Below are positions 4,381 to 58,925 of a stretch of 64,000 nucleotides of DNA, in pieces. The stretch covers positions 1-64,000 of the forward strand of contig DUZW01000001.1 in NCBI GenBank assembly GCA_013349295.1. The letters run 5' to 3'. The DNA comes from Deltaproteobacteria bacterium (GTDB taxonomy: Bacteria; Desulfobacterota; Desulfobulbia; Desulfobulbales; Desulfurivibrionaceae). Made by a program: the position numbers and the translations under genes. Each line of letters begins with the position of its first letter. The stretch's first letter is position 1. The notes under the pieces are model-generated. The model had not been told where the DNA came from. It saw only the letters and a list, made by a program, of their open reading frames with translations, and made no database searches.

Positions 4381-4922
4381 TGTCGCACCGGGATGCCGGT
4401 GAGCGGATCAATCAGGAACTCCTGGGAGCGGTGACCGCTCCGGGACACCAACCTTCCCGGCGTCGCCAGCCCGTCCGGATAAAAAACCAGGGTTTCCGGC
4501 CTGAGCTCAAACAACATACCCTCCGGCAAATCAATCTCTTTTTTTTCCTCCACCGCCCCGCTAAAATAGAGAAGTTGGGCTTGCCGGTCAAAATGCATCT
4601 CCACCGGCCGCCCCTTGCCCACTGCCATAAGCCGGGCATAACGGGTACCGGCGACCAGCGCCGCCGTCTGCCTGCGAAAACTCAACCTGTCGAGAAACCG
4701 AGCGGTGGCCGGGGCCACCATCCCGGCCATGATGCCGAGCACGGCAAGAACCATGATCAATTCTAGAAGTGAAAAACCACGTCGGCACCCTCGGAAGAGT
4801 AACCGTTCAGCAATCCCCCGGATGCGCGTGTCAATCGTCGACAGAAGTGTCCTACAAAGAGGCCTGCCCGCCATATCAGACCGATGACAAAGCAGATGCG
4901 AGACTGCTGGACGCTTAGGCAT
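4377..4922 (-). CDS. gspH: Type II secretion pseudopilin GspH with an atypically long leader
   Basis: RRGFSLLELIMVLAVLGIMAGMVAPATARFLDRLS; ATG at 4922 is 3 nt after the gspF stop; ~48 residues precede the G^F cleavage motif. Confidence 0.75.
   Translation of the reverse strand: MPKRPAVSHLLCHRSDMAGRPLCRTLLSTIDTRIRGIAERLLFRGCRRGFSLLELIMVLAVLGIMAGMVAPATARFLDRLSFRRQTAALVAGTRYARLMAVGKGRPVEMHFDRQAQLLYFSGAVEEKKEIDLPEGMLFELRPETLVFYPDGLATPGRLVSRSGHRSQEFLIDPLTGIPVRQ
4799..4918 (+). repeat. Palindromic element, family 1, copy F, embedded in the 5' end of gspH
   Basis: GTAACCGTTCAGCAATCCCCCGGATGCGCG...AAAGAGGCCTGC...CCGATGACAAAGCAGATGCGAGACTGCTGGACGCTTAG. Confidence 0.7.
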
Positions 4923-12451: not shown

Positions 12452-13132
12452 ATGAAATTTTCCCTGCCCGAGGTTTTGCAAATACTCAGCACAGAGGTGG
12501 CCGGGTACGCCGTGCCCATTGTCGATCTCATTGGTGTGCAGACCAACGACCCGTACAAGGTTCTGGTGGCGACCATCCTCTCCGCCCGAACCAAGGATGA
12601 AACCACGGCCACAGCCGCGGCCAGACTGTTCAAGGAAGCGCCCGACCTGGCCTCCCTGGCCGGACTCAGCGAAGAGCAACTTGCCACGTTGATCTTTCCG
12701 GTGGGCTTTTACAAAAACAAGGCCGGGTTTCTCGCCCGACTCCCCCGGGTACTGGCCGAGGAGTTTAACAACCGGATCCCAGACGAGGTCGAACCCCTCA
12801 CCCGTTTGCCCGGTGTAGGCCGAAAAACCGCCAACCTCGTAGTGGCGGTGGCCTTCCGGAAACCGGCGATCTGCGTGGACACCCATGTCCACCGGATCAT
12901 GAACATCTGGGGCTATGTGTCCACCAAAACCCCTCTCGAAACCGAGATGGCGCTCAGGGAAATGCTGCCGTCGAAATACTGGCTGACCATCAATTCCACC
13001 CTGGTGGCTTTTGGCCAAGGAACCTGCAGGCCGGTAGGACCCCACTGCGATCGTTGCGTCATCGCCATGTATTGCCCGCGGCTCGGAGTAAGACCCAGAA
13101 AGGAGCCGAGGCAGGGCAAAAAAACAAATTAA
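12452..13132 (+). CDS. nth: Endonuclease III
   Basis: LPGVGRKTANLVV HhH, VDTHVHRI, 4Fe-4S cysteines CRPVGPHCDRCVIAMYC. Confidence 0.92.
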   Translation: MKFSLPEVLQILSTEVAGYAVPIVDLIGVQTNDPYKVLVATILSARTKDETTATAAARLFKEAPDLASLAGLSEEQLATLIFPVGFYKNKAGFLARLPRVLAEEFNNRIPDEVEPLTRLPGVGRKTANLVVAVAFRKPAICVDTHVHRIMNIWGYVSTKTPLETEMALREMLPSKYWLTINSTLVAFGQGTCRPVGPHCDRCVIAMYCPRLGVRPRKEPRQGKKTN

Positions 13133-13277
13133 CTGTTCCACGCGATGCTGAACTGAAGGAAACCCACGGGATATTGCGGCTCCGCAGTGCCGCAGATGCG
13201 CGAAAAAAACCTGCAACGTGTGCAATTGCCCATAAACATAATGCCGACACAGCAGATATGGTGCTGCTGGACAGTTA
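13130..13277 (+). repeat. Palindromic element, family 1, copy A
   Basis: TAACTGTTCCA...TGGACAGTTA ends; core GCAGTGCCGCAGATGCGCGAAAAA...GGTGCTGCTGGACAG; begins on the nth stop codon. Confidence 0.7.
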
Positions 13278-13296
13278 CAAAACAAACGAGGATAGT

Positions 13297-18425: not shown

Positions 18426-18523
18426 CGGTGTATCCTCCTGACTGCGCCTTGGCGCGGAGTGGGTCGTTGTTCTTTATTGTAATCCTTTTACAAACGGGTG
18501 GGGAAAAACCAATCTCCTTGACC

Positions 18524-18629
18524 GTAAATGTTCAGCAGTGCCGTAGATGCACGAAAGAGGTCTGCGAAGTCTGCTATTGCACATGAACAGGCCGATGACA
18601 AAGCAGATGCGGTGCTGCTGACCATTTAC
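18524..18629 (+). repeat. Palindromic element, family 1, copy B
   Basis: GTAAATGTTCAGCAGTGCC...GGTGCTGCTGACCATTTAC; right end contains the metK stop codon. Confidence 0.75.
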
Positions 18630-19795
18630 GATTTTATTCCGGCGTCATCCCGCAAGGCCTCGGCCTTGTCGGTGCGCTCCCAGGTGAACTCTTCCTCTTC
18701 CCGGCCAAAGTGGCCATAGGCTGCGGTTTTCTTATAAATCGGCCGCAGAAGATCCAGGTGCTGGATGATCGCCTTGGGCCGCAGGTCAAAATGCGCGTCA
18801 ATGATCGCCTTGATCCGCTCATCGCTGATCTTGCCGGTGCCGAAGGAGTTGACATTGATGGAGACCGGCTTGGAGATGCCGATGGCATAGGCAATTTGCA
18901 CCTCAAGCTCCGTGGCGATCCCGGCGGCCACCAGATTCTTGGCAACATAGCGTCCCATATAGGAGGAAGAACGGTCGACCTTGGAGGGGTCCTTGCCGGA
19001 AAAAGCGCCGCCCCCATGGGAGCCCATGCCGCCATAGGTATCAACGATGATCTTACGGCCGGTAACCCCGCAATCGCCCACCGGCCCGCCGATGACAAAA
19101 CGCCCTGTGGGGTTGATGAAATACTTGGTATTGCTGTCCACCATATGCGCCGGAATGATGGGCTTGATGATCTCCTCCATCACGCCGGCCTTGAGATCCT
19201 CATAATTCACGTCCGGAGAATGCTGGGTGGAAAGGACAATGGCCTCAACCCGCTTGGGCTTCTTGTTTTCATATTCGATGGTGACCTGGCTTTTCGCATC
19301 GGGACGCAGCCAAGGCAGAAGCCCGGCCTTGCGCACCTCGGCCTGCCGCTTGGTGAGCCTGTGGGCATAGGTGATGGGCATGGGCATCAAAACTTTGGTT
19401 TCCGTGCAAGCATATCCGAACATCAGCCCCTGGTCGCCGGCGCCCTGATCCAGGTCCAGACCGGAACCTTCGTTCACGCCCTGGGCAATATCAGGGGACT
19501 GCTTGCCGATGCTGGTGAGCACCGCGCAGGACTGCCAGTCAAAGCCCATCTCGGAAGAATTGTAACCGATCTCCCGCACCGTCTCCCGCACCACGGCGGG
19601 CATATCCACCCAGGCGGTGGTGGTGATCTCGCCGGCAATAAGAGCCAGGCCGGTGGTTACCAGAGTTTCGCAAGCCACCCTGGCGTACTTGTCCTGAGCA
19701 AGAATGGCGTCGAGGACCGCATCCGAGATCTGATCGGCAACCTTGTCCGGATGGCCTTCCGAAACAGATTCCGAGGTAAAAAGATAATTTGGCAT
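18626..19795 (-). CDS. metK: S-adenosylmethionine synthetase
   Basis: [48 protein letters not shown]. Confidence 0.96.
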
Positions 19796-37249: not shown

Positions 37250-37302
37250 GACTACCCCTTACGGTTAACAGCTTGACATCTTCGGACGATATTCTGTAAA
37301 GA

Positions 37303-37411
37303 GTAAACGTTCAGCCGCGCGGCATCTGCTTTGTCATCGACCTGCTTGATAGGCAGGCTAAGAACTCACAGGCCTCTTTCATGCCTCTTGAGACACTGCT
37401 CAACCGTTTAC
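37303..37411 (-). repeat. Palindromic element, family 1, copy D (reverse orientation)
   Basis: Reverse complement GTAAACGGTTGAGCAGTG...GAAAGAGGCCTGTGAG...GTCGATGACAAAGCAGATGCCGCGCGGCTGAACGTTTAC. Confidence 0.65.
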
Positions 37412-37589
37412 GTTTCTAAGCTTACGCCGTGTTTTCCCATTGCGGATGAATGATTATTGTAAAAATGAGGATCATTATCCTAAGCACGGCATCCGATGTA
37501 ATACTTTTCAGCCCCACGCCCTGATTCATCCGCCCTGGTAAAGGATTTTACATAGCGCGGACCTGGGAGGATGGCAAGGATTCTTCACA

Positions 37590-40580: not shown

Positions 40581-42394
<1,814 letters not shown>

Positions 42395-42446
42395 GATTAA
42401 TTTCCTGAAAAGATTGAATACAACTTAAAAATCCGACCGGCTAAAT

Positions 42447-42552
42447 GTAACGGTTCAGCAGTGCCGCAGATGCGAGGAAGAGGCTTGCGAAGTGTGCTAG
42501 TGCACATGAGCAGGCCGATGACGATGCAGATGTGGTGCTGTTGAACCGTTAC
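42447..42552 (+). repeat. Palindromic element, family 1, copy C
   Basis: GTAACGGTTCAGCAGTGCCGCAGATGC...GCAGATGTGGTGCTGTTGAACCGTTAC; right end contains the pepP stop codon. Confidence 0.78.
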
Positions 42553-43658
42553 AGATCCAAAAAGGTGGTGTCCCGATTCAACACCCTGCACCCCTCTTTT
42601 TCTACCACCGCCATGTTTTCCAAGCGGATCCCGCCCCAACCCGGGATATAGACCCCCGGCTCCACCGTGACCACCATCCCGGCGGCAAGGGGTTTACGGT
42701 TCCGGTAGTTGAGCGACGGACCTTCGTGAACGTTCAAGCCCACCCCGTGGCCAAGGCCATGGCCGAACCGCTCACCTAAGCCCGCCCGCTCTATCACGCC
42801 GCGGGCGATCTTGTCCACCGCCATTCCGCTTATCCCGGCCCGAAGGCAATTCAGCCCGGCCAGTTGCGCCTTGCGCACTAAACGGAACAACGAAACCGTT
42901 TTGGCATCCGGAGTTCCAAGCACCACGGTCCGGGTCATGTCCGAACAGTAGCCGTCCAACACGAGGCCCATGTCGATGACAATGGTTTCTCCAGCCGCCA
43001 GCGGTCTGTCGGAGGGAACCGCATGGGGCAAAGCCGCGTTGGGACCACCTGCGACGATGGTCTCGAAACTCGGCCGCTCCGCGCCCTTGAGCCGCATACC
43101 GTTTTCAATGGCCAGGGCCACCTCTTTTTCGGTCTGGCCCGGGCGCAGGGTACGATAAATCTCCAGAAACACCGCTTCGTTGAGGAGAACCGCACGTTCT
43201 ATCCTGGCCAGCTCCTCCACATCCTTTCCCAGCCGAAGCTCCTCGACAAACCCGGTGAGCGGCACCAGTTCCACCTTGAGGGCGGCAGCCAGCTTGGTCA
43301 GGGTCAGGGAGGTGGAATGCAGGAAATAATGACTCTCAAAGGCCAGCCGCTTGAAGCGGTGCTTCTTAAGCAGGATGCGCAGCAAGGGAAACAACCCACG
43401 GGGATAGAGCTTGACCCGAAAATCAGTGGACTCCTGTTCCGCCTGCAAATGAAACCGGGAATCGGTGAGAAGATAGGGCTCACCCTCGGAGGGGATGAGC
43501 AGGACGCCCGCGCTTTCGTTGATCGCATGATCCCTGGCCGTATAGCCGCTCAGATACCTCCGGTTTTCCGGCTGGGTCACCAGGATGGCGTCAAGCTGGC
43601 GCCGCTTGAGGCTGCGTCTGATTCGGTCAAGAACTCCTTGCATCCGCATGACCGTCAA
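42549..43658 (-). CDS. pepP: M24 family aminopeptidase (Xaa-Pro aminopeptidase-like)
   Basis: IDMGLVLDGYCSDMTRTVVLG; GHGLGHGVGLNVHEGPSL; VTVEPGVYIPGWGGIRLEN. Confidence 0.88.
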   Translation of the reverse strand: MTVMRMQGVLDRIRRSLKRRQLDAILVTQPENRRYLSGYTARDHAINESAGVLLIPSEGEPYLLTDSRFHLQAEQESTDFRVKLYPRGLFPLLRILLKKHRFKRLAFESHYFLHSTSLTLTKLAAALKVELVPLTGFVEELRLGKDVEELARIERAVLLNEAVFLEIYRTLRPGQTEKEVALAIENGMRLKGAERPSFETIVAGGPNAALPHAVPSDRPLAAGETIVIDMGLVLDGYCSDMTRTVVLGTPDAKTVSLFRLVRKAQLAGLNCLRAGISGMAVDKIARGVIERAGLGERFGHGLGHGVGLNVHEGPSLNYRNRKPLAAGMVVTVEPGVYIPGWGGIRLENMAVVEKEGCRVLNRDTTFLDL

Positions 43659-51832: not shown

Positions 51833-51901
51833 GGCCCCTAGAGAAATAGTCGCAGCTGCGCCAGCTTAACAAAAACGGCAACCAGGCAAACCCCAAAAGT
51901 T

Positions 51902-52049
51902 GTAACTATTCAGCAGGGCCGCTGCTGCACGCAAGAGCCTGCGAGCAGCAGTGAAACGGCGATAGTCCGCCTATGCGGACAAGCCTATGACAGCTCAGCG
52001 AATACCGCGAGACGACTCCACAGCAAAGCGGGTGCCGCAGAATAGTTAC
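51902..52049 (+). repeat. Palindromic element, family 1, copy E (divergent/expanded)
   Basis: GTAACTATTCAGCAGGGCC...GGTGCCGCAGAATAGTTAC upstream of topA. Confidence 0.55.
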
Positions 52050-52076
52050 CCAAAACGCACAGATCACCAGGACACT

Positions 52077-58763: not shown

Positions 58764-58925
58764 AAGGGTTGGAATGGGTCCGAGCCAAAAAACTCTCTTA
58801 ATCCCATGAGTTGATAATCATGAATCATTTCCAGAAGTACGAACCACATGTAGTGGTAGGCATTTACAAATAACACAAGATGGCGGGATTTTTAAGTTTT
58901 TTTACCCGGACCCATTCCAACCCTT
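58764..58925. repeat. 162-bp segment bounded by a perfect 19-bp inverted repeat
   Basis: AAGGGTTGGAATGGGTCCG (58764-58782) and CGGACCCATTCCAACCCTT (58907-58925); internal ACCAC-ATGTA-GTGGT hairpin. Confidence 0.7.

Follow-up and report, generated by a model that had tools for sequence, protein, structure and literature searches.

A palindromic element at positions 42447–42552 (+ strand) of the DNA analysed here (the window, 64,000 nucleotides, which is contig 1 of a deltaproteobacterial genome assembly of 2.9 Mb in 66 contigs, 88% complete) recurs in five further copies within the window, and this raises the question of what keeps the arms of such a hairpin complementary in copies that differ in sequence. 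The original prediction gave selection on a fold as the answer, rather than an insertion; the covariation on which it was built is real, but the copies are insertions.

The repeat family in the window and beyond

All six copies exist where they had been placed and share a core, and the complementary terminal-stem pairs attributed to them are correct, but the copies are not equivalent; two of them, 18524–18629 and 42447–42552, are typical hairpins of 106 nt, while others are modified or diverged. A difference between these two in the inner stem (GGTCTGC versus GGCTTGC, with the opposite strand unchanged) had been taken for a compensatory change, whereas it is a one-sided swap of wobble pairs. 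The hairpin at 42447 folds with −69.2 kcal/mol (z −12.7) on the + strand and with −40.4 kcal/mol (z −6.3) on the − strand, which is far beyond chance. A reading of the core as a peptide was dropped because its length is not a multiple of three and its variation is stem-like. Rfam holds no match to the window at gathering score or to the element at E ≤ 5, and phages and plasmids gave no match to the element.

Used as a BLAST query, the copy at 42447 has 40 matches in its own genome at E ≤ 0.01; a covariance model built from 26 copies has 107 at E ≤ 0.1, which leave about 82 distinct places when hits of a copy to its own opposite strand are discounted. The further copies that had been expected genome-wide and in relatives are therefore present: 52 of the 58 genomes searched (the own genome included) carry the family, among them all 17 of the genus, each with 21–67 matches, and genomes from several further families of the order. 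A survey of 398 genomes across the phylum, in which few candidates per genome were scored and the counts are lower bounds, gave at least 26 that match, at least 17 of them outside the order; relatives bearing the core are metagenome-assembled genomes labelled Desulfobulbaceae or Deltaproteobacteria (e.g., UBA2273, UBA11700, and RIFOXYD12_FULL_56_24).

When the copies are printed with their flanks, the predicted borders prove to delimit the hairpin but not the element, which reaches further left; about 45 nt upstream lies another terminal repeat, the outer left end, followed by an A-rich linker, and the target duplications described below lie outside that end. From left to right, the element of about 150 bp consists of the left terminal repeat GTAAYNRTYCAGC, the linker of about 32 nt, and the hairpin of about 106 nt, the 5′ arm of which opens with a second copy of the terminal repeat while the 3′ arm closes with the right terminal repeat (...GCTGRAYNNTTAC). 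In the window, the element with the typical hairpin at 18524 spans 18479–18629 (+ strand), its outer left end (GTAATCCTTTTAC) being located at 18479–18491 and followed by the linker; at 42447 the outer left end has decayed. The copy given as 13130–13277 had been drawn from the true left end straight through to the right end; the full element extends from 13129, where the outer left end TTAACTGTTCCAC begins, to 13278 (+ strand), and the hairpin proper is 13173–13278. On the minus strand, a diverged element occupies 37303–37457, with the hairpin at 37303–37411, the linker, and the outer left end (ATAATCATTCATC) up to 37457. A variant at 51878–52049 (+ strand) has a short left extension (51878–51901) and a hairpin (51902–52049) with the same ends and a different interior, and a diverged hairpin copy with an extra hairpin module (GTGTCAATCGTCGACAG...) lies at 4799–4918 (+ strand), its left end not being recognisable.

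The linker of the own copies (1–31 nt left of the hairpin) contains A-rich blocks about 10 bp apart, with peaks near −3/−4, −11/−12, −21/−22, and −30, a spacing that resembles intrinsically curved DNA. Short relatives consist of ends, linker, and a small hairpin only (L191, with the duplication TCCCTTAA, and L187, with CGGAGAAC). The interior is variable; there are two kinds of apical hairpin as well as inserted hairpins (GTGTCAATTGTCGGCAG...CCGACAA or CGCCGCTTCGCTGC / AGCAGCG...GGCG), and modules are exchanged even between orthologous copies. Small hairpin modules in the internal loop or the lower stem of some copies are absent from the sister-species orthologues, as if they were swapped between copies (those bearing modules or compared are window 4799–4918; L117, L102, L171, L177, L178, and L236; L306, L309, L332, and L334). 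The most constant part is formed by the residues of the internal loop (mean identity 0.86 versus 0.77 in the stems); its core recurs beyond the order, there with an entirely different outer stem (L469, G446; other genomes of the phylum). A kink-turn is not claimed for this loop, as the second helix pairs poorly.

Insertion and the link to IS66

That the copies are insertions is evident from 8-bp target duplications, from presence and absence between species, from empty sites, and from ends identical to those of an element with an IS66 transposase. Many own copies have lost a recognisable outer left end, and scoring of duplications was limited to the 31 that retain it; there, the 8-mers flanking the outer left end and the right end match on average at 4.74 of 8 positions, versus 2.12 in control pairings, and 13 copies match at six or more positions where 0.4 are expected, the observed agreement being reached in none of 20,000 permutations. 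Perfect duplications are found in the own genome at C22:17262 (CTTACCCC), at C33:19520 (TGAATCAC), and in the window around the element at 13129, where AAAACAAA occupies 13121–13128 and 13279–13286 (8/8); in other genomes they occur at L090 (CCGCTCAG), at the short relative L187, and at L103 (GTCCGGGA). The diverged element on the minus strand is flanked by TCTTTACA on the hairpin side (37295–37302) and TTTTTACA on the outer-left side (37458–37465; both given as minus strand, 7/8), and the variant by CAAAAACG (51870–51877) and CCAAAACG (52050–52057; 7/8). The borders of the hairpin were rejected as borders of the transposon: only 4 of 81 copies match there at six or more of eight bases (0.7 expected), and in one of these four the copy takes in the outer left end anyway, which is therefore the true border.

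At the window sites 13129 and 51878, sister species are without the insertion and have the target sequence once; the element at 42447 is absent from all alignable sister-species loci, and at nine own loci compared with 16 congeners the insertions are common to only some of these or to none. The repeats are insertions of a non-autonomous transposon (MITE), short, multi-copy, and with no gene inside, and not a free-standing RNA family.

Ends beginning with GTAA and 8-bp duplications characterise IS66, the single-gene members of which form the ISBst12 subgroup. Of 118 genomes of the order, 40 have an IS66 transposase (PF03050), and several IS66 elements there, like the MITE, begin with GTAA and have perfect 8-bp duplications. 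One of them (L213 in genome G048) is 1,729 bp long, has the ends GTAACTATCCAGCTT / GTAACTATCCAGCTC and the duplication GAATATTT (8/8), and encodes in a single gene a transposase of 475 aa (PF03050, 5.7e-47; NCBIfam NF033517, 3.4e-86). Its 13-bp ends are those of the MITE (GTAACTATCCAGC), that is, the terminal inverted repeats are common to the MITE and an autonomous element, and the MITE, with GTAACTATCCAGCTTGATGCC..., is present in this genome too. Among further IS66 elements of the order, the ends GTAACTACTCAGC, GTAACTACTCAC, and GTAACTGTTCAGG occur, with duplications of 8/8. Single-gene elements of this sort, which we take to be ISBst12-like, thus share with the MITE the ends GTAACTATCCAGC and relatives as well as the 8-bp duplications (measured on L213 and others); unlike them, the MITE is gene-free and has for its body a hairpin in which the end occurs a second time.

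Taken as a whole, the repeats are very probably non-autonomous MITEs of the IS66 type, about 150 bp long and with a maintained hairpin. A single-gene IS66 transposase acting in trans would move the segment between the outer left and the right end. Because no IS66 transposase gene was found in the 17 genomes of the genus (the own included), most of which are incomplete metagenome assemblies, the partner of the genus may have been lost, be unassembled, or have been acquired only transiently; among the lone terminal repeats inspected for a larger element, none belonged to one with a transposase. The missing gene speaks against the IS66-type reading, as does the number of copies that no longer have a recognisable outer left end.

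The bacterial MITEs RUP (IS630-Spn1), Correia/NEMIS, and ERIC have been reviewed (PMC2229807), where they are listed with TA termini and another kind of duplication. The element is like them in having 100–200 bp, a mostly intergenic location, terminal repeats, long stem-loops, and several size classes; it differs in the 8-bp duplication, the IS66-like ends, the arrangement of one outer left end plus hairpin, and the position of the right end on stop codons. The papers searched contained no named family of IS66 MITEs, and we regard the element as a new MITE family, not as a new kind of system. A conspicuous repeat, of which single genomes in an order of mostly uncultured bacteria from sediments hold tens of copies, is hereby explained and tied to IS66.

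Covariation of the hairpin arms

As had been predicted, this is a dispersed family with covariation exceeding a phylogenetic null, whereby the test employed a simplified null of our own, not R-scape itself, on an alignment fitted to the structure of the model. In 97 copies, 94.6% of the cells are paired and 25 of the 31 pairs have changed on both sides; 214 double-changed cells compare with 45 in shuffles, and sliding the partner destroys the signal. With a tree-simulated null, 8 of the 31 pairs are significant (E < 0.05), which is covariation as asked of a structured RNA, and no pairs in the entire alignment are stronger than the stem pairs 5–102 and 6–101. As a pointer to selection on an RNA fold, however, covariation alone is not proof, since correction of DNA templated by the hairpin would leave the same trace.

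A third cause, matching of the two transposon ends, is ruled out because, of the two terminal repeats on the left, it is the inner one that the right end tracks (copies compared by eye, e.g., L181 and C42). The arms are complementary to the last base pair while the outer left end differs; it is therefore the hairpin itself that is kept, rather than a match of ends for the transposase.

How the arms change together can be followed at orthologous sites. Double changes in place, such as AACG/CGTT versus ACCG/CGGT (C37:22432), T-A versus G-C (L080/L081), and T-A versus C-G (C13:465), were found four times in 241 pairs, as opposed to 1.2 expected; breaks and wobbles were gained equally by orthologous copies (13 and 13), and loops diverge like stems, which favours concerted change, for example, by template switching, over steady site-by-site purifying selection. 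Concerted double substitutions by template switching restore or change stem pairs in one step, as demonstrated on reconstructed histories of RNA genes (PMC8794818); the one-step double substitution is what the two cases have in common, and they differ in that RNA genes were concerned there, whereas for a MITE such maintenance is a proposal. The stem covariation looks to be mostly concerted double change, and DNA correction templated by the hairpin is at least as likely its cause as selection on RNA; some of the apparent concertedness could instead stem from gene conversion among copies, which also adds noise. Most likely, such template-switch correction would keep the arms matched in combination with selection that acts on the hairpin as long as a copy still spreads, a scenario that stands about level with selection at the RNA level.

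What selection at the RNA level might act upon is a structured RNA carried by the transposon. The predicted + strand transcript would form one long hairpin with a conserved internal loop as the site of protein binding or of processing; the stems would stay paired because this RNA is under selection, either in the host or for the element to spread. Such an RNA, which we consider possible but on balance improbable, would fit the stronger fold of the + strand, the bias of the wobbles to one strand (404 G·U versus 67 A·C cells, six pairs being fixed as wobble only in this sense), and broken pairs at about 0.4 of the neutral expectation; the internal loop, more conserved than the stems and retained outside the order, points in the same direction and also counts against a purely passive transposon with template switching. 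However, the wobble bias is slight once the six fixed pairs are set aside (81 versus 55, p = 0.03), genes in tandem around a copy run antisense to its hairpin strand more often than sense (35 versus 15, p = 0.007; 51 versus 21 with relatives), and both the equal gain of breaks and wobbles in orthologues, with their diverging loops, and the lack of an Rfam match speak against it. With orthologous double changes available, the family is a test case for deciding between RNA function and template switching of DNA as the source of covariation in repeated hairpins.

Stop codons at the right end

Gene borders are where the insertions are mainly located. When genes are called from their codon usage and copies are counted where both neighbours were called, a right end that faces the 3′ end of a gene has the stop codon within −4 to +6 bp in 39 of 47 own copies, as opposed to 3 of 27 for the left end (Fisher p = 2e-9); in related genomes, the facing stop lies within this range in 18 of 21 copies. 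Such a stop belongs either to the terminal repeat, whose GTTAC often provides the TAA, or to the 8-bp duplication. The two cases in the window concern certain genes: the TAA (42549–42551) of an M24 peptidase gene (42549–43658, minus strand) lies inside the right terminal repeat GTTAC of the copy at 42447, and the right terminal repeat of the element at 18479 supplies the TAA (18626–18628) of metK (18626–19795, minus strand).

This placement, seen in own and related copies alike, would suit a mobile cassette of stop codon and hairpin that is kept by the host as terminator, as protector of the mRNA 3′ end, or as translation brake for the facing gene, and, according to a study cited in PMC12306157, ribosomes can be stalled by REPs that lie no more than 15 nt from a stop codon. 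A role of this kind is unlikely nonetheless: a U-tract, as in an intrinsic terminator, does not consistently follow the hairpin, being present in 20 of 81 copies when read antisense and in 15 of 81 when read sense, the insertions are not conserved between species, and other species of the genus use an unrelated palindrome at the 42447 site. A terminator scan of 42300–42700 found only a small unrelated site. The palindrome in question (CTTCGACAGGCTCAGGCCGAACGG...GTGCTGAGCCTGTCGAAGCAC) lies at the same gene 3′ end in sites orthologous to 42447 (L265, L268–L270, L272, L275, L277, and L278), which marks such gene ends as shared hot spots for palindromic repeats; it has only four sites in the own genome, too few for it to serve as a control.

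Slightly less probable still is a transposon family with a conserved structured hairpin (tandem GA motif AGAU/AGAU and the loop CGAAAGA/GAUGACAAA) in its life cycle, where this hairpin, as RNA or single-stranded DNA, would direct insertion to stop codons or secure survival there; were this true, each new copy would end a gene cleanly with its own stop and a 3′ hairpin.

The habit of providing stop codons is already known from REPs, and it is the carrier, a MITE of the IS66 type, that is new. The termini of GTAG REPs often lend stop codons, and their subfamilies have alternative complementary stems (PMC3733652); many REPs lie within 1–20 nt of the end of an ORF, according to an earlier study as cited in PMC12306157. 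Palindromes, a terminal G-T-A motif, stop-supplying termini, subfamilies with alternative complementary stem residues, and frequent G-T pairs are thus common to both (PMC3733652; PMC12306157), but it is very improbable that the repeats are REPs moved by a RAYT (tyrosine transposase), which would be palindromes of 20–40 bp with an unpaired GTAG tag and no duplication. The element differs in size (about 150 bp, with a hairpin of 106 nt), in its ends (terminal GTAA inside the paired stem, repeats common to IS66), and in its mobility (clear 8-bp target duplications). REPs and the IS66-type MITE together offer a test case for why small palindromes of differing origin gather on stop codons. Least probable of all is a family of attC-like integron recombination sites; these would account for hairpins of variable stem at stop codons, but each copy stands alone at a scattered site instead of in a cassette array, the copies create 8-bp duplications, and the sequences seen contain no GTTRRRY/RYYYAAC core pair.

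Elsewhere in the window, a 31-bp inverted repeat (58764–58794 / 58895–58925; 90% complementary, arms 100 nt apart) is unrelated to the element.
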